The position numbers and the translations under genes are program-made. Positions 21,701 through 45,212 of a DNA stretch of 47,057 nt are shown here, piece after piece. The stretch lies in IMG/VR virus record IMGVR_UViG_3300040781_000137, positions 1 through 47,057 of that record; one strand, 5' to 3'. This DNA comes from a virus. The notes beneath the pieces were generated by a model that was not told where the DNA came from, did not search any database, and saw only the letters and a program-made list of their open reading frames with translations. Each line of letters starts with the position of its first letter. Position 1 is the stretch's first letter.

Positions 21701-24700
21701 CTCATGTTGAATACTGATGTTGGTAACGTAACTGACTTCAGCAACACAATATCAACATTGGTGTTGGATCAATTCACACAGAATGACGCTAATAGCAACC
21801 TATATGGTGACAGCTCAACATTCATCGACACGACAAACACAGGAAACGACGTTGGCATGCAGAACTGGATTGCCACGCTTCCGTTCTTTAATATTCTACC
21901 AAGAGTTCAGCCAGTATATTTAACTGATGATGTTCGAGGCGTGAATCAAATAATTCACCACGATGGACATCGCAAGGATTATAACTTAACTGAAGCAACC
22001 AAAGATGCTATCGCCCGCCGAGTGATTCAATCTGTTGATAGTCGCTCGGGTGCAGCAGCACCATATAACCAACTTGGTCGGTTATCATCAACGTCACCAT
22101 CGGATACTATTGCAGACTTTTTGTTAGATTTCAACGACAGCATTACAAACCGCCGTGGTGTGTATTGGTATCAGGTGGTTGGTGGAACTCGAATATTGTA
22201 TCGGCTTGCCGTCGCAGCAGTAGGAACATCTCAACCACCAGCGACACTGCCAGATGGTGTATTGTGGATCGATACAACAACAGGTAGTCAGACGCTCCGC
22301 CAGAAGTCAGGTTTCACGTGGCCTGTTGTTGCTGGTCTGACTGTTGGAGATGGTAGGCTTCATAATGGAACAAACCCATCCGAAACGTCCACATCAACAG
22401 TATCGGCATGGGAGGTATTTGATATTGATGAATTCCTAGCTGATCTTGTACTTGAAGTGGAGAAACGTTTGTATTCAGCAGCACCTGAAAGTTTCGTTCC
22501 AGTATTTGACTTCAACTTATTACAACAAACCCCGTCAGATCTTGACCGGTACCACACTCTACAAGAACAAGCGTTCTTGGATTACGCCCGCCAGAGTGAA
22601 ATTCCAGCACCACTGGAAAACATAAGCTATGCAGCCACGGATGCTTTCACGTGGAATTACAAACACTCTGCACCAGGGCAGAGCCACAACATTGTAGGCA
22701 CAAGCTCGGTAACAAATACAGTAACACTTGCTGGCGAGGTCTCAAGTGATTTTGCTTCACTGCCAAAAGAAGTGTTCATCAAGAATACAGGCACAACGGA
22801 CGGAACATTTACAGCAATATCGGTTGTGGAATATAACGGACAAACAGTTGTCACAATAAGTGAGCCAGTTAATGATAGCCTGTCTGGTATTTTGTATTCT
22901 GCTCTATTACCGAAGGTCAGCGGAAACACAGGCGCCGAGTCAGCAGGTGACTGGAGAAGTTTATATCAGCAATACTATGGAACACCCTACCCACATCTTG
23001 AGCCTTGGAAACTTCAACAGTATTCCGATAAACCAATATGGTGGGACGCTGAATATAAAGACACAACTGGGACTCGTCGTTGGACGAACGCAATGTGGGT
23101 TGAGATTCAAGCTGGTCGCATTCCAGCAACACGTACCCTGCCTGATGGAATAACAATCTCATCAACGCCAACCAACGGGCAGACAACACAATACAACTAT
23201 TTCTCAGTTAACACTGCGACAGATACACTACTACCTCCATATTTCGCTGGCGGGTCGGGCGTCAACCGTTCAGTGTTCACGAACCTTGGTGAGATAACTT
23301 CACCAGCAGCAAACTATTCTTTCGGTGATAACGGACCGAATGAAACTAACTGGAGATTATCGTCTCAGTACCTGTACGATCAACTAGATGTTGCTTATCA
23401 AATGCAACCACTCAAAGTTATAGATGCTATGTTTGGTTTTGATAAGATTGAAGTCGCAGGTCTGCCTGTTGACACTCGCACCAATCAGGTACCGGCACAC
23501 AATCGCACGAAGTTCCACGGTGACATCGCTGATGACAACAGTATTGTACGTGCGTTGGGGTTCAATCAGTGGTACGTTAATTACAACAGATATCAGGGCT
23601 TTGATGCAAGTTTGGCTGATTTCCGTAGAATGTGGACAGACTGGACAGCACCATTAACATATCAGTTTGCCACATTCGTTGACACGGGTTCGTTCCAACT
23701 TGGTCACAGAACAGTACCGATCAGCGAATTTGATTATAAAATACTTTCAAAACGTTCTCCTGGTGTTGAAGATTTTTGGCTGAATGCTTTTGATGTGAAA
23801 GTACTAACCGTACCGCCAAAAATCACACGAATGAACAACGAAGATGATTGGAGACTAGAGCTGGATATCAACACTCCTCTAACACAGTCGATTGATTATT
23901 ATGATGTTCGCAACTATCCTTTCTCCGTGGATCTAAACACTAATGTGTGTGAATTATATCAGTATACGATTACGAACGTTAATTACTTCAACTCAACAAT
24001 ATCGGTACAATCGAAGCAAACAACAACGTTTAGTGCTGGCCGTGTGATAACTATCACAGGGTCAACGGGTAATGACGGCACATACACTGTACATTCATCA
24101 GTGTATGACGGAACGACGAATACCACGATCGTGTCGCTCGGTGAGACCCTGGACTCACCGATTACAAGCGGATCGGTTAGCGCCGAATACCGAGTAATAC
24201 CATGGGAGACGGGTGATCCGATTTACTTCACAACTAGTGATGTTCTACCAACACCGTTAATATCTGATCAACCCAACATTGGTCCTATAGTATATTATAT
24301 TATAGTTTTGAGTGATACCGAATTCCAAGTGGCTAACACAAGAGCGAATGCTCTTGCGGGACTGGAAGTTGGTCTATCGTCGATCGGTAGAGGTACACAA
24401 CACGTTAGTGAACTGCAGTCGACGTTTTACGCTCTCGATCAAGAATATACGAGTGCGTATTGGAGGCACTATGCGTTGGATACTAGCAACAAACTCACAA
24501 TTACGCCCCCAACCACAATACACGGAATGCAAGAGCTTGTTAATATCATTGATGGGTATTCGGTTGTTGTTAAAGAAGCTGGTTTCAGCATAAACGAAAA
24601 GAATAGCATCACTGACCCTGATTCGGGTCGAGTGGTTGATTGGCAGATTGAGATCGAGCGATTTATAGATTTTGCTTACTCTCTACAAGGACGGCGTGAT

Positions 24701-27700
24701 CAAAACATCAACAACAGATTCGAAGTGACGGCTGACTCAACAACCAATAGCTGGACGTGGGGCAATTATTCACCCAATTGGACAACAGGAACTGAAGTAA
24801 ACGTACTATCTTCAAACGGCCGCCTGCCTATACCAATCCTCCACGGTGTTCGCTATTATGTGATTATTGACTCAACTACAACTTTTCGTTTGGCACACAC
24901 AAAATTGGACGCCACAAGAGGTATTGCCCTCGATCTCGAAGACACACCTAGTGGTGCTACGTTGATGGTTTACCAATCTACAACAAAGACAACAAACTAT
25001 CCGTCACAAGAAATTAATCCTTTCCGTGATGCTATATTCTTCAACCAACCACGCGGCATTGTTTCCAATATGACAACGGGACCTTCAGAAGACATCCGCA
25101 ACACCCAGTTGTTGTTCGATCAATACGGTGAACCGTTGGATCGAGCTCACACGAGAATTTACCGACAGGATGAGCAGACGTTCATTCAGTGTGCTCGGAA
25201 TATTAAAAACCCGAATGTACCTAATATATTATTCACAAATCCGTATAACTTCCTGCACTTTGGTGGAGCTCACATCTTCATTGATGCTTACGAGCACGTG
25301 CTTGTATTCAACAGCGAGACAACGGAAGGAGCGTTGTTGTATGATCCATTTATCGGCTTGAACGTAACTAAATTCGAACTGCTGTTTAATCGCCAGGTTG
25401 AATTTACAGAACGTCCAAACGTTGGCGGGAGTTATTACTCAACATACTTTAATCAAGGGGCATCATTGCTGGACAACTTTGAAGCTAGTGTTGAAAATAT
25501 TCGTTATTTGTACGACGCTTACCAAGCAGTTGAATCAAAAGCGCTAACCGTACAATCAAGAACGTCACTTGGTTACGAAGGCCAGCAAGAATATCTCGCC
25601 GATCTAAATCTGAATCAAAAGTCACAATTCATTTTCTGGAGAGGTTTGATCCAGAATAAAGGAGCGGTTGAGAGTGTTCAAGCATTCATCAACTCGCGTC
25701 GTTTCATTGATGCGAACATTGACGAATTTTGGGCTTACAAGGTTGCGGACTTTGGTTCTGCAAACGACAAAGAGTATCCAGAATTATACATCACAACAGA
25801 GGATATTCGATCAAACGATTTCCGCATCCAGTTCACTGAAACGGGAGAAGTTATCCCCGGTTTTGGTAACGGTGGCTTCTCTGACATTGGTGCAGGGTAC
25901 GACATCACTGGTGAAGAAATCGAACTGGAAGATGATGGAATCACGCCAATTTCTTTGACTGACACGGATCGTTGGTTCGATCAACCTGATATTGTAAACA
26001 CGTTGCGTGATAATGGTTCAGCGCTGTACTTTGCTATGCACGTTGTTGCATCATCTGACATCACTGGTATAATAGATGTGCAGTATCGCCACAATTTCAA
26101 TACTGATTATGAGATTGTAACACTTGAAACAGAACCTGTTGGAACAATACTAGTGTACACCGAAATGGTTGGCAATGCTACTGAAGTGACCCTACCAGGT
26201 ACCAACAAGTACTTGACTTTTACTGGACACATTCAAGTAATCAAGAATGGTGCTATAATGAATAACCCAACAGACTACGAGCATGTAGCATCACCAGGTT
26301 CTTCATCATACTTCAGCACGAAGATTGCATTTACGTCACCACTAAAGATTGGCGATACGGTGCAGATCGTTTACAACAAAGCAACTCTTCAGCCAGAAAT
26401 GCATTTTGATAGAGTTAATTCAAACATCATCCGATTTAAGGACGCTCAGTTGATTGACCCGTCTCACATTATGAAGTTGTGGGGATATCGGGTGAACGAT
26501 AAAGCACAGAATCCGGGCAAGTTGGTTGACAGATTATCAGGCACTATCGTGACTGATATGCCGTTGTGGGATCCAGCTAGAGGTATACACTATAAGCTTG
26601 CAGAGTCAATTATATCTCTAAGAGCACCGTCCGATCCTGCCGTCTATACTGAAACGTTACAGTCTCAGAGCCTCGTCGGAACGTCTTTTACCCCCTGGAA
26701 CAGCACTGAAGTAGGCCACGTATGGATGGATACATCTAAACTTGGTTATGTGCCATACCACGACGACCGTGTGTTTCAAACACTTGACGAGCGTTTGAAG
26801 TATTGGGGATTGTTAGCCGATTGGTCAGAAATAACACTATACGAATGGGTTGAATCGGATCTGCCCCCTGATGAATACAACGACGCAGCACTGAACGAGG
26901 AAGGTGATAGTGAAATAGCAGAACACATCCGTAAGTCAGGCAAGGCAAGGGAAACGGTGTTTGAGCTTCACGACAATGGAGAGTGGGCTGTTGTTGACGA
27001 TAGACACCAAGAGTTCTCTGTTCTATTTGACGCATCTCCCGTATCTGGTACAACCGCCACGTATGAGTTTACACTTGACGCCACGATACTTGACATTGAT
27101 ACAGCTATAGATGCTGACACACAATACGTAAGTGTGTATGTGAATGGCATTGCTCGAATCTCTCCAACAGGCGAAGGTTTTGAAATTCCATCAACTCTGA
27201 TAATGGAAGTTGAAGGTGTGTCGGGTCCAGATATGGTTCGTTTCATTAAACGTATGCCGAGTGATTCGATTGTCGATCAACGTATAGTAGATGGAACAAT
27301 GGAACGTCGATATGAACATACGATCGTGCCTTATGTTGACAAGTTTGGACAAATCCAGAATCGGTATTACTTCTGGGTCGGGGACAAAGTTACAAGAAAC
27401 CTCAAGCAACCGATGTCGATAACATCTGCCCAGAGTCAGTTAACGACAATACCAACACCGTACATTGTGGTTGGCAATCCAGAGCAGGCAGATATTAGAG
27501 CATCAGCACTAACAGATCTGGACAAGTCGTGGCAGTATATGATCGGTGCAGGTGAAGGTGATGCTACATCATCGTATTACCAAATATCTGGTCAAACACA
27601 AGACGACTTCGCTGTTTGGAATGGTGGTGAACACGACCCATTACAGGCGTATGTGGTCGGCGACATAATCACCCTCGGCAACAACATGGAAGTGTTGGTT

Positions 27701-39914: not shown

Positions 39915-40970
39915 TTATTCAGAAGCATATTCAAGCTTCCGGATTTCCTTGACGAGGTCCGAAAATGTCATGTCAGATTTCATCATCATTGATACGATGT
40001 CATCTTTCACCATAAGCTCTTCGACACTCTCATTCAACATGGGAGCAATAGTTTCCATTAATGAATCCCAATCAATGACATGATCAACACCTTCGGTCGC
40101 CAGATTCGGATCAATCAACATCTTGGCTTGCTTTAGAAAGTTTGCACCTAGTAGGATGGGATGGTCCATATGCATTCTGTTGTTCAGGTTGAATTGAACC
40201 CCTTGTACAGCTTTCGTACCATTCACCCGAATGTTCAGTTCAACAACTGGCCGGTACTCTTGCCCACCATCACCTGACTTCACAGCCATTTGTGATACTA
40301 GGGGCAGAGTGATTACATTTGGGGAAAGCTCTTTACAAACGAACCGAACACTCTGCCCATCAATCTTCCACTTCTCGGCATGCATAGAACACAGTGTCGC
40401 ACCAGTATCAACAAGAGCTTTCATCTCTTTGCTGTTCGGTAGGCTCGTGATTTTCACAGTAGCGTGATTACCAATCAGGTTGTCTGTGTTGGTTGGTTGA
40501 CTGACGGCAACACCTTCGTGAACAATATTACGACCACCAACATTGGTGGTAAACACGTGTGGTCTGGTCGATACACAATGTGCAGGCCGTAGCATGTTGC
40601 CGTTTACAAGTCTCCACACGATGACAATCCATTCCTCTAATCCAAGCTTCTTACCTTCTTCCTTCCAGTTTCGTCCAGCCATTTTGTATATAACTACAGC
40701 AGGTTTCCTACGGGCTAGTATATCGTTGAAGTCTAATTCTTTGGATGTTGATAAAGTGTAGGGGATGCCACCAACGTGAAAGCGTGTTTGAGATATGTGC
40801 CAATTGTTGCTGAGAGCATGCTTTTCAAAATCTTTGAGAGAATCATACTCACTGTGAACATCTCCCTTTCGCCGTTCTTTTTGCTTCTTCAACGTCTCCA
40901 AATCAACAGTCATTGAGTTTATTTCAACTTCACGTTTAACTTGATCACGATTTTCAGATTGTTCTGTCAT
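39915..40970 (-). CDS. retropepsin-like aspartic protease
   Basis: 351 aa from the ATG at 40970, which overlaps the exonuclease stop (ATGA); a GTG one codon earlier is possible. Residues about 160-290 match the RimB-type retropepsin-like family (PF05618, once called ATP-dependent zinc protease): KALVDTGATLCSMHA with catalytic D188-T-G, then SVRFVCKEL, EYRPVVELNIRVNG, and HPILLGANFLKQ (270-281) followed by IDPN. One DTG per chain implies a homodimeric active enzyme. The N-terminal 150 residues (Lys/Glu-rich helix, then GGIPYTLSTSKELDFNDIL) and the C-terminal 60 acidic helical residues are unknown. Neighbours are an exonuclease and a 2OG-like protein. Substrate is unknown; head or tail protein processing or host targets are guesses. 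Confidence 0.7.
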   Translation of the reverse strand: MTEQSENRDQVKREVEINSMTVDLETLKKQKERRKGDVHSEYDSLKDFEKHALSNNWHISQTRFHVGGIPYTLSTSKELDFNDILARRKPAVVIYKMAGRNWKEEGKKLGLEEWIVIVWRLVNGNMLRPAHCVSTRPHVFTTNVGGRNIVHEGVAVSQPTNTDNLIGNHATVKITSLPNSKEMKALVDTGATLCSMHAEKWKIDGQSVRFVCKELSPNVITLPLVSQMAVKSGDGGQEYRPVVELNIRVNGTKAVQGVQFNLNNRMHMDHPILLGANFLKQAKMLIDPNLATEGVDHVIDWDSLMETIAPMLNESVEELMVKDDIVSMMMKSDMTFSDLVKEIRKLEYASE

Positions 40971-41632
40971 CACTTACTCCGATTGAATTCTTCAATGCGC
41001 TGTAGTAGCGGTTCAACATATTTATCGATTGTATCCGTGAACACAAGAGGGACCATGCCTTTCTCGACACTCATCAGAATTACTATCTGTTCAATCGCCT
41101 CACCAGTGAGTTCATGCCACGCAATTGCGTAGAAAGTTGCCTGCAGGAAATAGTCCTCGATCCAATCACGTTCCTTGTTGTTGTTTGATGTCTTGAAATC
41201 AATGACACTCAACACACCATCATATTCCCCAACACAATCCACGCGTCCCGCTATGCCAAGCGTATCACTATACAGTGGAGCTTCTTGCATACGGATGTTG
41301 TCAATCTTTTTGAGTTTGAATTTGAGTTGGTTGAATCCTTTAATGTGATCAGCGTCACGACCCTTCGTAGGGTTTGGATCATTGTTGAGGAAATTCTCCA
41401 CCATCTCGTGGACGGCAGTACCTCGATCAGCACACCTATTCATCTCCTTTTTGGCTTTGGAGGCTCCAAGACTCTGTTGCCATGCCACCAGATGTGGCTT
41501 CTCCTTCACACCAAGCATTGTTGTGATAGAAGGATACACGTCGCCATTGGGTGTTACGTATGTACGCCCTTTGGCGGTAGTTGTTGCGTTGAGTTCCGGG
41601 AGGTCTACCGGTGAGCCTATATGTGTGAACAT
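40970..41632 (-). CDS. PD-(D/E)XK exonuclease (Cas4/MGME1-like)
   Basis: 220-aa nuclease. Motifs in order: PSITTMLGVK, CADRGTAVHEMVENFL (His of the RecB-type group), GRVDCVGEYDGVLSVIDFKT (catalytic Asp, then D-x-K), and YFLQATFYAIAWHELTG (the Q-x-x-x-Y motif). This set is typical of small RecB/Cas4/MGME1-like exonucleases that degrade single-stranded ends. It is the upstream partner of the retropepsin-like gene, with overlapping stop and start. The start codon at 41632 lies in the loop of a 16-bp inverted repeat and has no ribosome site, and a TATAAATA element ends five bases upstream; no alternative start precedes the first motif. Confidence 0.8.
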   Translation of the reverse strand: MFTHIGSPVDLPELNATTTAKGRTYVTPNGDVYPSITTMLGVKEKPHLVAWQQSLGASKAKKEMNRCADRGTAVHEMVENFLNNDPNPTKGRDADHIKGFNQLKFKLKKIDNIRMQEAPLYSDTLGIAGRVDCVGEYDGVLSVIDFKTSNNNKERDWIEDYFLQATFYAIAWHELTGEAIEQIVILMSVEKGMVPLVFTDTIDKYVEPLLQRIEEFNRSK

Positions 41633-41659
41633 ATACTATTTATACACATATAGGCTCAC
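41611..41659. repeat. 16-bp perfect inverted repeat around exonuclease start
   Basis: Arm GTGAGCCTATATGTGT at 41611-41626 and its exact complement at 41644-41659 are separated by 17 bases that contain the start codon of the minus-strand exonuclease gene and a late-promoter match. It could be a repressor operator or an mRNA hairpin with the start codon in its loop. Confidence 0.9.
41637..41644 (-). promoter_or_regulatory. late-promoter match TATAAATA
   Basis: Perfect T4 late consensus on the minus strand, between the arms of the inverted repeat and ending five bases before the exonuclease ATG, so any transcript from it would be leaderless or serve a later start. Confidence 0.4.
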
Positions 41660-41693: not shown

Positions 41694-42035
41694 TCACTTA
41701 CCAACATACGGCTCGGCGGAGCGTTTGGAATCGTCAGCTGCAGCTTTGCGTTCAGTAGGTGACATAGCTCTAAGCTTGTCCATCTTATCTTTCATTGATG
41801 CCTGGACTCTAGCGCTGGATGCCAAACGGTCCTTCTCAAATTGAGCATTTTTGACTTTACCGGCCTCTCTCTTGGCAACACCTTCGGGAGAAGCATCAAA
41901 TGCCTTCTTTTTATCTGCTGCATCTTTATAGCGCTTACGTTCACCGTCAACAGTACGTTTTGCTGTAGCACGCATTTCATCAGTAACAATTTCATTTAGT
42001 ATGTTAGTTTCAATCAAAAATTCTGTAAAACGCAT
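41694..42035 (-). CDS. putative internal head protein, 113 aa
   Basis: Highly charged, Lys/Ala-rich helical protein. It opens MRFTEFLIETN, almost the same as the 86-aa protein two genes upstream (MRFKEFLNEA), and similar to the T4 internal-protein capsid targeting peptide (MKTYQEFIAE). LIE before Thr resembles a prohead protease (gp21) site. After that point the protein is basic and Lys/Arg-rich (KRTVDGERKRYKDAADKKKA, LRAMSPTERKAAADDSKRS), fitting a DNA-associated head protein. Its ATG overlaps the stop of the preceding gene (TAATG). Packaging in the head is inferred, not shown. Confidence 0.6.
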   Translation of the reverse strand: MRFTEFLIETNILNEIVTDEMRATAKRTVDGERKRYKDAADKKKAFDASPEGVAKREAGKVKNAQFEKDRLASSARVQASMKDKMDKLRAMSPTERKAAADDSKRSAEPYVGK

Positions 42036-42385
42036 TAGGTATTCCCCATCATTCGTTGATTCATAGTTGCAACGATTTTACTCATTGACTTGTTTTTAGA
42101 GACACGACTCTTGCGTTGGATAACACTCTTCTTTGCTCGCATAGTTTTACGGCCTTGGCGGACTTTTTTTGGATCCTTGCGCTTGAAGCAAGACGCAGGT
42201 GTAGCGACCAACTTACCTTTTTTTGGTCCAGCAGTGCAACGATACTTTTTGACAACAGCCTGCCCCTTTCGTTGGAACTGACGGATAGCACCTTCAGATA
42301 GCACCTCACCAGTTTCAACACACACCACAACCTCTTCAAAACAACACAACTCGTCGTCATCGTATAAAATATCGTTAATTCTCAT
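42035..42385 (-). CDS. putative basic internal head/DNA-binding protein, 116 aa
   Basis: The protein has an acidic N-terminus (MRINDILYDDDELCCFEEVV) and a very basic remainder (KKVRQGRKTMRAKKSVIQRK, SRVSKNKSMSK). The junction is VETGEVLSE-GAIRQF near residue 36, where LSE before Gly fits the gp21 prohead protease pattern (hydrophobic-x-Glu). Removal of the acidic part would free a strongly DNA-binding chain, as for some T4 head core proteins. Two cysteines occur in YRCTAGPKKGKLVATPASCF. It shares one-base TAATG junctions with both neighbours, so the genes are coupled. Function inferred. Confidence 0.6.
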   Translation of the reverse strand: MRINDILYDDDELCCFEEVVVCVETGEVLSEGAIRQFQRKGQAVVKKYRCTAGPKKGKLVATPASCFKRKDPKKVRQGRKTMRAKKSVIQRKSRVSKNKSMSKIVATMNQRMMGNT

Positions 42386-42645
42386 TATTTGCTCTTTGCG
42401 GCAATCTGTTGGTCCAATTTAGCAAGGCGCTGTCGTAGAACAGCACGTTGTTGCTTCAACTGGCTTGCCGGATCTTCACTATCAGCTTGAGCTGCAGCAC
42501 GATCTGCTTTTGCCTGTGTTATTTGGTTGGAAGCAGCAAGACGTGGGTTGCGCTGAGCTTGTTTTTGCTTACGCGCAATGTCAGCAGGTGAATCGTTCTC
42601 ATCGTAGTCAATAGTGGCTTCGTTCAAGAATTCTTTAAATCTCAT
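42385..42645 (-). CDS. putative internal head protein, 86 aa
   Basis: Small Gln/Ala/Lys-rich helical protein. It opens MRFKEFLNEATIDYDENDSP, and the first ten residues are close to the T4 capsid-targeting peptide; LNE before Ala is an ideal prohead protease cleavage site. The mature part (ADIARKQKQAQRNPRLAASN, QLKQQRAVLRQRLAKLDQQI) is a predicted coiled coil with a final basic end. It lies seven bases after the 356-aa core-like protein and overlaps the basic protein gene. It is probably an internal or scaffold head protein; the closest relation is with the 113-aa protein that shares its N-terminal peptide. Confidence 0.6.
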   Translation of the reverse strand: MRFKEFLNEATIDYDENDSPADIARKQKQAQRNPRLAASNQITQAKADRAAAQADSEDPASQLKQQRAVLRQRLAKLDQQIAAKSK

Positions 42646-42652
42646 AACAATC

Positions 42653-43723
42653 TCAACTTTGTGCTTGCAAGTGACGGAAGATCATATCAGCCAAATCTTC
42701 TTTTGATACTTCTGAACCTGTGGTTGATCCTTCTTGTTCTTCGTTTTCTTCAAGATCCAGGCTATCTTCGCCAACGTCTGATGTAGCAGGAGCGGCTTTC
42801 ACATTACCATTACCACGAATCTCGTGCCGGTATTTAGCGAGCTTGGCTAAAGTCTTTGCTTCTTTCTCAGCATCCTTCTGGCCCTTCTCGTGCGTCTCCA
42901 TGTCCAGAATCTGTTCTTCTTGAGCAACTTTCTGCTCAGCAGCTGTAATTGCATATCTAGCCGTTTCAGCTTCAGCAGCCGCTTTGCGAGCATCAGCTTC
43001 AGCTTTCTTTGCTTCAGCATCAGCTCTCATCATGCCGATCACATCTTGCAGAGCTGACTTTGCATCTTCTTCACCAGATCCAACTTCATCGAGACCCTCG
43101 CCATCTTCCAGATCACCACCTTCGCCATCTCCCGGATCACCTTCAGTATCAGGGTCTCCACCCTCCAGATCGCCCTCAACCTCTTGTTCTTCTTCCTCAT
43201 CACCTTCAATGACACCCCAATCAACATCAACGATGTCAAACTTGTCTTTCAGTTGATAGAGTACTTCGGCAATTTCACCATGAGAATTATCATCATCAGC
43301 ATCTTCATCAGCACCAGCAAGCATTGTTGCTAGTGCGTGTTCGAAGTCTTCAGCCTGTTCGTCACGAACATATACCTTAACCAACGCGCCTGTTTCGTCT
43401 TCCATGCCAAAACAGGTCGTATCATTGCCGGCATCAGCTTTCTTTTCAGCATCATCCAACTTGCTGATTTCATCGGATGTGTCGAAAGAATCATCAAATG
43501 CTTTTTCAGCAATCTGCTTCCATTTACTTCCACCTGTTAATGTGTGAGCGTCGCCCACCTTGAAATAGCCAATTCTGCGAAGCATTTTAGTCTTTCGTTT
43601 GTCTTCAGCAGCTTGGTTTACAACACCACCACCGAATAGCGTACCACGAGCGTTCGCAACGGAACCAGCTCCGGTCGCTCCAGCAGCTGCGCTCTCAATA
43701 ATAAGATCACGTAGAAATGACAT
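42653..43723 (-). CDS. putative prohead core/scaffold-like protein
   Basis: 356-aa protein. It opens MSFLRDLIIESAAAGATGAG; IIE before Ser is a good prohead protease site and the following Gly/Ala-rich stretch would become the new N-terminus. Residues about 60-165 look globular (YFKVGDAHTLTGGSKWKQIA, LVKVYVRDEQAEDFEHALAT). Residues about 175-220 are extremely acidic and Gly-rich (EGDEEEEQEVEGDLEGGDP). Residues about 228-305 form a long Ala/Glu/Lys coiled coil. The acid-rich and coiled-coil makeup is typical of scaffold or internal head proteins, although it is not recognisably T4 gp22. It has a consensus late promoter 28 bases upstream and an AAGGG ribosome site and is the first gene of the four-gene head cluster. 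Confidence 0.6.
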   Translation of the reverse strand: MSFLRDLIIESAAAGATGAGSVANARGTLFGGGVVNQAAEDKRKTKMLRRIGYFKVGDAHTLTGGSKWKQIAEKAFDDSFDTSDEISKLDDAEKKADAGNDTTCFGMEDETGALVKVYVRDEQAEDFEHALATMLAGADEDADDDNSHGEIAEVLYQLKDKFDIVDVDWGVIEGDEEEEQEVEGDLEGGDPDTEGDPGDGEGGDLEDGEGLDEVGSGEEDAKSALQDVIGMMRADAEAKKAEADARKAAAEAETARYAITAAEQKVAQEEQILDMETHEKGQKDAEKEAKTLAKLAKYRHEIRGNGNVKAAPATSDVGEDSLDLEENEEQEGSTTGSEVSKEDLADMIFRHLQAQS

Positions 43724-43750: not shown

Positions 43751-43758
43751 TATTTATA
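43751..43758 (-). promoter_or_regulatory. T4-type late promoter TATAAATA
   Basis: Perfect eight-base consensus on the minus strand, 28 bases before the 356-aa head-cluster gene at 43723. Position and sequence are as in T4 late genes. Confidence 0.6.
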
Positions 43759-43763
43759 CATTA

Positions 43764-45212
43764 CTACAACCCTGCAAGCTGTTTTCTGAATATCTCCTCA
43801 ATGATAACCCTTTTGTCTCTGGCAAAAGAGGCAACCTCACGTATTGTGTTCAGTTCAATCTCCAATTCGGCGAACATTAACATGGTACGGTTGTGTATTG
43901 CTTTGCTGTATCCCAACCACCTACCACCATCCAACTGGATACCAAACTCAGACATCTTGTCCAAATACCATTCACGACGCTCATTCAACAGCGCAAGATG
44001 TATTTTACAGTGGTGTACGACTGAACTACGGAATACCGCGACGTGTCTATTGTCTTCCAACGTCAACCACTCAACAACGTTATCCAATGTCCGTTGGTAT
44101 ACATCAGCTTGGTGTTTGCGCAGTTCGCGCTTAATACCCATGCCTGAATGCAAATTAGCACCTACAGGCCACAATTGATTATTCATGGATTGCAGAAAAC
44201 CATCATATATGCTGTCCACATCGCTCAACTGATGCAGACCACCAAAAGTGATAACTTTGGGATCAATCTTACCGTGACTAGTTTTTCGTATTGAGTTACG
44301 AACCAAGTGGTTGAAAGCATTGATGGAAGTGAACTCAAGTTTATTAACAATCTTGAATTGTTCCTGGGTTTCAGGGTTCAGGAACACAACACCCTCAATG
44401 CCGATATCCTCACCATCACGGAGTTTCATATCGCACAGACCACTCGTCATAGTACGCAGAGTGTCAATATACGGCTGAACAATCCGTTGTTTCATCAGTT
44501 CGGCGCTGTATTGGGCATTCTCACGTAGTTGCTTAACTACGGGTCGATCAGCAACTGGTACAGAAGTTAGGTTGGCGTTAAGCAAGTCTTCGTTCGTCCA
44601 ACCACTCATGTCGGCTTCCAACCAGCTCACGAATGTCTGTATGAGATTCTTGTGTGGCACACCGAATATTGCCGAATTAACAGTTGGCACCATGGCCGTA
44701 CGCCACGGAGTTGACGTGTGGTCGTCTTGAATAGTTTTACCATCAAGAGACACAAACCCAATTGTCGGAACCGCATCCCATGAACGTCTGAATATTGTCC
44801 CACCCCATCGCTCATCATTAATTGGTGGGGACAGTTCACCATCATCACCAATCAAAGGACGTAAAAAGACAATACCGTTCGTGCCATACACGATAGCATT
44901 TGGTTGCCGCCCATACAACACTTCAACCTCGTATGCACTACCCCTTTCCATGGTATTCTCATGTACCATTTTCAGGTAATTGTGGGCATTGATAAACCCA
45001 GCGTTAGCGGGTGTTTGTCTGTATTGGTAATCGTTGTAGTATCGTTCCGCCAGACCCTTGTTGGATCTGGATGTGTATACTCTTCCTTCTCTGTCTCGAC
45101 CGACAACAAGGGCTGCACCATCAACCTTTTCGGTTATGGTGAATTCGTCAAAACGTTGAATAACGTCGAGGAACTGTCTGACTGGCAAGTCTTGTAGATG
45201 TTTTATGCTCAT
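43764..45212 (-). CDS. ATP-dependent ligase-like nucleotidyltransferase
   Basis: 482-aa protein with the motifs of covalent nucleotidyltransferases (DNA/RNA ligases). Motif I is FTITEKVDGAALVVG with probable adenylated K29; YTSRSNKGL follows as in ligases; motif III is SAYEVEVLYGR; motif IV is IGIEGVVFLNPE; motif V is QFKIVNKLEF. These lie in the first 300 residues with a long insert between III and IV. The C-terminal 180 residues are helical and of unknown function. Whether it seals DNA or RNA cannot be told; it is longer than T4 Rnl2 (334 aa). It lies upstream of the head cluster and has a TATAAT seven bases before its ATG inside a palindrome-flanked region, with no ribosome site. Confidence 0.7.
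   Translation of the reverse strand: MSIKHLQDLPVRQFLDVIQRFDEFTITEKVDGAALVVGRDREGRVYTSRSNKGLAERYYNDYQYRQTPANAGFINAHNYLKMVHENTMERGSAYEVEVLYGRQPNAIVYGTNGIVFLRPLIGDDGELSPPINDERWGGTIFRRSWDAVPTIGFVSLDGKTIQDDHTSTPWRTAMVPTVNSAIFGVPHKNLIQTFVSWLEADMSGWTNEDLLNANLTSVPVADRPVVKQLRENAQYSAELMKQRIVQPYIDTLRTMTSGLCDMKLRDGEDIGIEGVVFLNPETQEQFKIVNKLEFTSINAFNHLVRNSIRKTSHGKIDPKVITFGGLHQLSDVDSIYDGFLQSMNNQLWPVGANLHSGMGIKRELRKHQADVYQRTLDNVVEWLTLEDNRHVAVFRSSVVHHCKIHLALLNERREWYLDKMSEFGIQLDGGRWLGYSKAIHNRTMLMFAELEIELNTIREVASFARDKRVIIEEIFRKQLAGL

Follow-up and report, generated by a model that had tools for sequence, protein, structure and literature searches.

A late operon predicted to encode four head-targeted proteins in a T4-like phage of a largely uncultured clade

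Four consecutive genes on the minus strand of a viral DNA fragment are best explained, with a probability that we put at roughly 0.78, as a late operon of head-targeted proteins in a T4-like phage whose clade is largely uncultured, with leaders that would be trimmed by a gp21-type protease; we infer targeting, cleavage, location and later role from the genes and their relatives. Under the model we favour, short amphipathic N-terminal segments resembling the T4 capsid targeting sequence (CTS) would carry the proteins into the assembling prohead. Once the shell has closed, the leaders would be lost through cleavage by a gp21-type S77 protease at (L/I)xE, directly behind the conserved Glu. The mature, acidic 356-aa protein would then begin much as the mature major capsid protein does; most likely it belongs to the prohead core or the inner shell, a location that we infer. 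Its small basic partners would be retained inside the head as internal proteins, alongside the packaged DNA. The strongest single argument for this model, as well as its most surprising part, is that the 356-aa protein carries what appears from its sequence to be a capsid maturation junction.

Results

The window (the whole 47,057-base virus record analysed here) is a fragment with T4-like genes. Four contiguous ORFs together cover exactly 41694-43723 on the minus strand, where they follow one another in the order 356, 86, 116 and 113 aa, confirming an earlier sequence-only reading that had described four consecutive genes starting MRFTEFLIE-T, MRFKEFLNE-A or MSFLRDLIIE-S, or carrying an LSE-G junction. 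The 356- and 86-aa genes are 7 nt apart and a TAATG overlap joins both the 86/116 and the 116/113 pair, so that the four genes read as one operon. The T4 late promoter consensus, TATAAATA, is found at 43751-43758 on the same strand, 28-35 nt ahead of the ATG that opens the operon. Because the number of such sites in the window (two, versus 1.44 expected) is not above chance, we only make use of the position of the site and its conservation: [TC]ATAAATA lies some 34-50 nt ahead of the start in most members of the 356-aa family, and TATAAATA itself is present at -35/-33 in XacN1 and RAS14. The proposed consensus late promoter ahead of the cluster is thus matched by comparably placed sites in most orthologs. 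The second TATAAATA (41637-41644, minus strand) ends 5 nt before the annotated start of the exonuclease gene, which suggests either that the true exonuclease start is farther downstream or that the match is due to chance.

The genes next to the cluster encode a DnaB-like helicase and the exonuclease, with a DNA polymerase farther along; the cluster sits amid replication genes, outside the capsid block, which counts against the model we favour. Judged by these neighbours, the four proteins might be replication or recombination accessories whose motif binds some other hub. Three observations argue against such a role, which we regard as very unlikely: the late-type promoter, the capsid-like maturation junction of the 356-aa protein described below, and the location of the XacN1 ortholog directly after a head completion gene. 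Two further ORFs on the minus strand of this region deserve mention in their own right. One, at 39915-40973, contains a retropepsin-like domain (PF05618 'Zn_protease', E 7.5e-14, VDTGATLCSMHA), and VDTGA proteins resembling it occupy the matching place in four relatives (L004, L105, L116, L119). The other, at 43764-45212, has a weak RNA ligase match under the cut-off (PF09414, E 0.0043), with a TEKxDG motif kept in relatives at the same place.

Neither Pfam nor PHROGs scans returned a usable family for any of the four proteins, and a megablast comparison of the cluster region with phages gave zero matches, in line with the suggestion that these proteins are not recognisable by full-length similarity. 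To detect CTS-like N-termini we counted, across all ORFs of the window and of three relatives, an IpII-like pattern, M[RKSTN]{1,3}[FYLI]..[FY][LIVM].E, with shuffled N-termini as the control. Two of the 39 window ORFs carry the pattern, compared to 0.005 expected from shuffles; the corresponding counts are 2/435 in G001, 2/539 in RAS14 and 2/456 in XacN1, where 0.01, 0.07 and 0.04 are expected, respectively. Applied to T4 as a positive control, the pattern selects three of 259 ORFs, namely IpII, IpIII and gp61.1, and is hence a reasonable CTS detector, even if IpI is missed. Both the window count and the recovery of IpII and IpIII bear out the claimed resemblance to the T4 targeting peptide; as a sequence pattern, an N-terminal capsid targeting sequence of about ten residues is present. 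We note in passing that T4 gp61.1 (L073 18966-19130), annotated as hypothetical, has a CTS-like start, MKTFKEFIKE-D.

Could the likeness simply be coincidence, or reflect general N-terminal composition? The motif is short and, genome-wide, a broad version of the pattern is only mildly enriched (eight in RAS14 versus 1.7). Leaving the window out, we took the relatives' ORFs in the interval from the 356-aa gene to the exonuclease and compared them with the other ORFs of the same contigs. The broad pattern occurs in 16 of 47 cluster ORFs and in none of the 281 others (Fisher 2.5e-15), and the strict form, FxxFLxE, in 11/47 versus 0/281 (Fisher 1.7e-10), p-values that overstate independence since many of the cluster ORFs counted are orthologous to one another. 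Together with the shuffling of the same N-termini, this makes coincidence an explanation to which we give hardly any credence; for the cluster as a whole, 16/47 versus 0/281 rules it out, a verdict that does not extend to the 113-aa orphan. The search for further starts of this kind, which the sequence-only reading had proposed, also uncovered two more XacN1/RAS14 families with CTS-like N-termini: one at L005 5043-5777 (minus) and L007 6507-7229 (minus), starting MRFTSYLIE-T and MSFKTFLIE-G, and another at L062 14862-15917 (minus) and L043 5721-6761 (plus), starting MRFVQYLIE-A and MSFVQFLIE-N. By their sequence, these are further candidate head proteins.

The 356-aa protein (42653-43723, minus strand, as are all features below unless stated otherwise) is predicted from conservation and profile searches to be head-targeted. 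It begins with a putative ten-residue leader, MSFLRDLIIE (43694-43723), followed after the predicted cut by SAAAGATGAGSVA; the predicted mature protein is acidic, with a charge of -52 at pH 7. There are 54 loci related to it in viral contigs, and among 50,697 records orthologs in cultured phages are found in XacN1, RAS14 and CM1 only. Nearly all relatives start MSLLxxLxxE, or a close variant, and continue xAAxGATxAGxIA, so that leader and junction are common to about 50 of them; the G001 member of the family has TG in place of xE.

This junction resembles that of the capsid protein. The capsid protein of G001 carries the junction HLLNE-TAAAGSTGADSIAGFR, and those from other genomes of the clade are similar. 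When a profile of the 356-family N-terminus was run against 1,729 proteins, the best non-member was the G001 capsid protein (2e-6), followed by the capsid proteins of SCTP-2 (0.018) and XacN1 (0.033). In the reverse search, a profile built from twelve capsid junctions alone was run against 1,728 ORFs and recovered, beyond capsid proteins, the window's 356-aa protein (1.1e-4) and its orthologs in XacN1 (7.6e-4) and RAS14 (8.8e-4); no other ORF among the 1,728 scored below 0.38, and the G001 member of the family fell into the noise (2.5). The reciprocal searches, each over some 1,700 ORFs, thus single out capsid proteins and the 356-aa family only, and identify in the 356-aa protein what looks like the N-arm of a mature capsid protein (SAAAGATGAGSVANARG, 43643-43693). 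For XacN1 ORF347 or its RAS14 ortholog, the predicted processed N-terminus would be TAGGGATGAG or TAGAGAIGTG.

The remainder of the protein does not look like a capsid protein. There is no match to Gp23 or any other Pfam family, and specifically none to an HK97-fold capsid domain, from which the predicted structure also differs. AlphaFold2 models the N-terminus as disordered and the rest as a small alpha/beta domain with a single long helix (mean pLDDT 58, pTM 0.25). The domain (residues 81-168, 43220-43483) reaches pLDDT 74 and pTM 0.57 when modelled alone; a fold search of the PDB with it returned no match, and a BFVD search returned two entries, one of 468 residues, equal in length to XacN1 ORF347, and the other an unnamed protein of 386 aa. 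The predicted 87-residue helix (residues 217-303, 42815-43075) is probably a coiled coil. Along with the charges of the predicted mature forms of the three smaller proteins at pH 7 (+7, +26 and +4 for 113, 116 and 86 aa), this helix agrees with the idea that the mature parts are basic or coiled-coil.

In the 116-aa protein (42035-42385), whose predicted mature form has a pI of 12, family comparison points to a leader and a basic KKYRCTAGPKKGK core on either side of an LSE-GA junction. Its putative leader is acidic, 31 residues long and ends in LSE (42293-42385). Taking the best 80 of 273 related stretches, the family shares a basic KYRCTxGxRKGR core, ahead of which the homologs closest to the window's protein have an [LI]xE-[AGS]A-like junction. 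Leaderless homologs (SCTP-2 gp12 and those on contigs L195 and L200) start MAKL[IV]Y, which aligns with DE-AKLIF in a longer form on L154, so that a natural start falls at the predicted cut; the SCTP-2 homolog begins near that cut. Contigs L153, L159, L175 and L203 encode fusions in which a peptidoglycan-binding domain (PF01471, E 9.3e-18 in L153) precedes a basic core of the 116-like kind, the two being joined by an LEE-[KR]QVWARSG junction.

The picture is less clear-cut for the 86-aa protein (42385-42645), where motif enrichment and homologs point to a CTS-like segment, MRFKEFLNE (42619-42645), with FxxFLxE conserved in 25 distinct homologs. Within F-x-x-[FY]-L-x-E, F is found in 25/25, L in 24/25 and E in 23/25, an invariance partly due to selection because the homologs were chosen for having the motif. 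Mean pairwise identity is 0.49 over the first ten columns as opposed to 0.22 elsewhere (permutation 6 in 20,000). The residue at P1' varies freely, and in seven of the 25 homologs the motif is internal, at residues 91-118. These two observations would be expected if the N-terminal segments were core-binding prohead-targeting peptides that stay uncut at these Glu residues, in the 86- and 113-aa proteins if not in all four, these being parts of a scaffold or core instead of mature internal proteins. Against this stands the gp21-like junction kept in the 356- and 116-aa families, where it is shared with the capsid protein or falls at natural starts, and we consider the uncut alternative unlikely, albeit the most serious of the rivals. 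The 113-aa protein (41694-42035) is a basic orphan with a CTS-like segment, MRFTEFLIE (42009-42035), that is defined by its motif pattern; a search for relatives found none. A weak match to an ORF on L077 (E 0.02 in a four-sequence comparison) was not counted as a relative.

A gp21-type protease, which the sequence-only reading had suggested looking for, is missing from the window but present in its relatives. The window, being a fragment without the capsid block, contains neither an S77 protease nor a capsid gene. Matches to Peptidase_S77 (gp21) that exceed the curated cut-off occur in all four large relatives (G001, XacN1, SCTP-2 and RAS14). The protease is also present in 9 of 14 further contigs, some of which are fragments; there, its gene is located 1.4-2.0 kb before gp23, close to the T4 arrangement. 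Additional divergent gp23-like proteins occur in G003 (59960-69939), G004 (323166-324014 and 24288-24875), G016 (71028-71612) and G001 (131949-132563). In G003, two extra weak S77 matches lie beside one such protein, perhaps forming a second capsid-protease module.

Discussion

Given motif conservation, the T4 positive control and the match of the 356-aa protein to the capsid maturation junction, we regard predicted head targeting as strongly supported for the 356-, 86- and 116-aa families. There is good support in the 356- and 116-aa proteins for predicted cleavage behind the named Glu. For the 86-aa family cleavage is equivocal, owing to the freely varying P1' and the sometimes internal motif, and the case for putative targeting is the stronger one; in the 113-aa protein, it is the motif that suggests possible cleavage. 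The original proposal of a set of internal head or scaffold proteins is thus supported in large part, with good grounds for predicted targeting in three of the four families and for predicted cleavage in two.

How do these proteins compare with known head components? T4 IpII and IpIII, with the CTS MKTYQEFIAE, have the same N-terminal pattern ending in xE, a small basic mature part and late expression, features that are here predicted from genes. Their mature parts, however, have no sequence similarity to the cluster proteins, and Pfam and PHROGs revealed no similarity to known internal proteins. This fits the observation that T4 internal proteins have little in common beyond the CTS (PMC3012670). 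The 113-, 116- and 86-aa proteins would have a small basic mature part, as T4 internal proteins do, whereas the 356-aa protein is acidic. The T4 core proteins gp22, gp67 and gp68 are likewise charged and partly helical, as well as being protease substrates, as predicted here, but they are encoded in the portal-protease-capsid block, between the portal and the major capsid protein. The four-gene cluster lies outside such a block; in G001 some 60 kb separate it from the capsid block, where other ORFs (39930-40913 and 42288-42728) occupy the places of those core genes.

In T4, gp21 removes 65 residues from the capsid protein and ten from gp24 (PMC9958956). The ten-residue leader of gp24, MAKINELLRE-S, resembles MSFLRDLIIE-S of the 356-aa protein, which also matches the junction and N-arm of the clade's gp23. 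It differs from both gp23 and gp24 in having no Gp23 Pfam match and in being modelled as a small alpha/beta domain plus a long helix. One virion protein may be relevant here: in RsoM2USA, a member of the XacN1 clade, ORF438 was identified by mass spectrometry as a 51.69-kDa virion protein of unknown function (PMC8504454). By its number it falls between the exonuclease (ORF435) and the helicase (ORF441), the interval that holds the cluster in relatives. Note that ORF438 could equally be the ligase-like neighbour and is not counted as evidence.

Why should an acidic, non-capsid protein with a long helix carry a capsid junction and N-arm? One scenario, which we offer tentatively as possible though doubtful, is that a single protease creates the same new N-terminus on the shell and on an inner protein, possibly tying the inner layer to the expanding shell, and that FxxFLxE is a portable signal that directs proteins to the head, also when it lies within a fusion.

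More generally, our analysis yields a set of candidate head proteins that can be tested in a widespread clade of T4-like phages, nearly all of them uncultured, whose proteins lack database families. The code for targeting and processing known from T4 would thereby reach far beyond that phage. The analysis also suggests a rule by which a CTS or capsid-junction N-terminus may mark, from sequence alone, proteins that are carried in phage heads.
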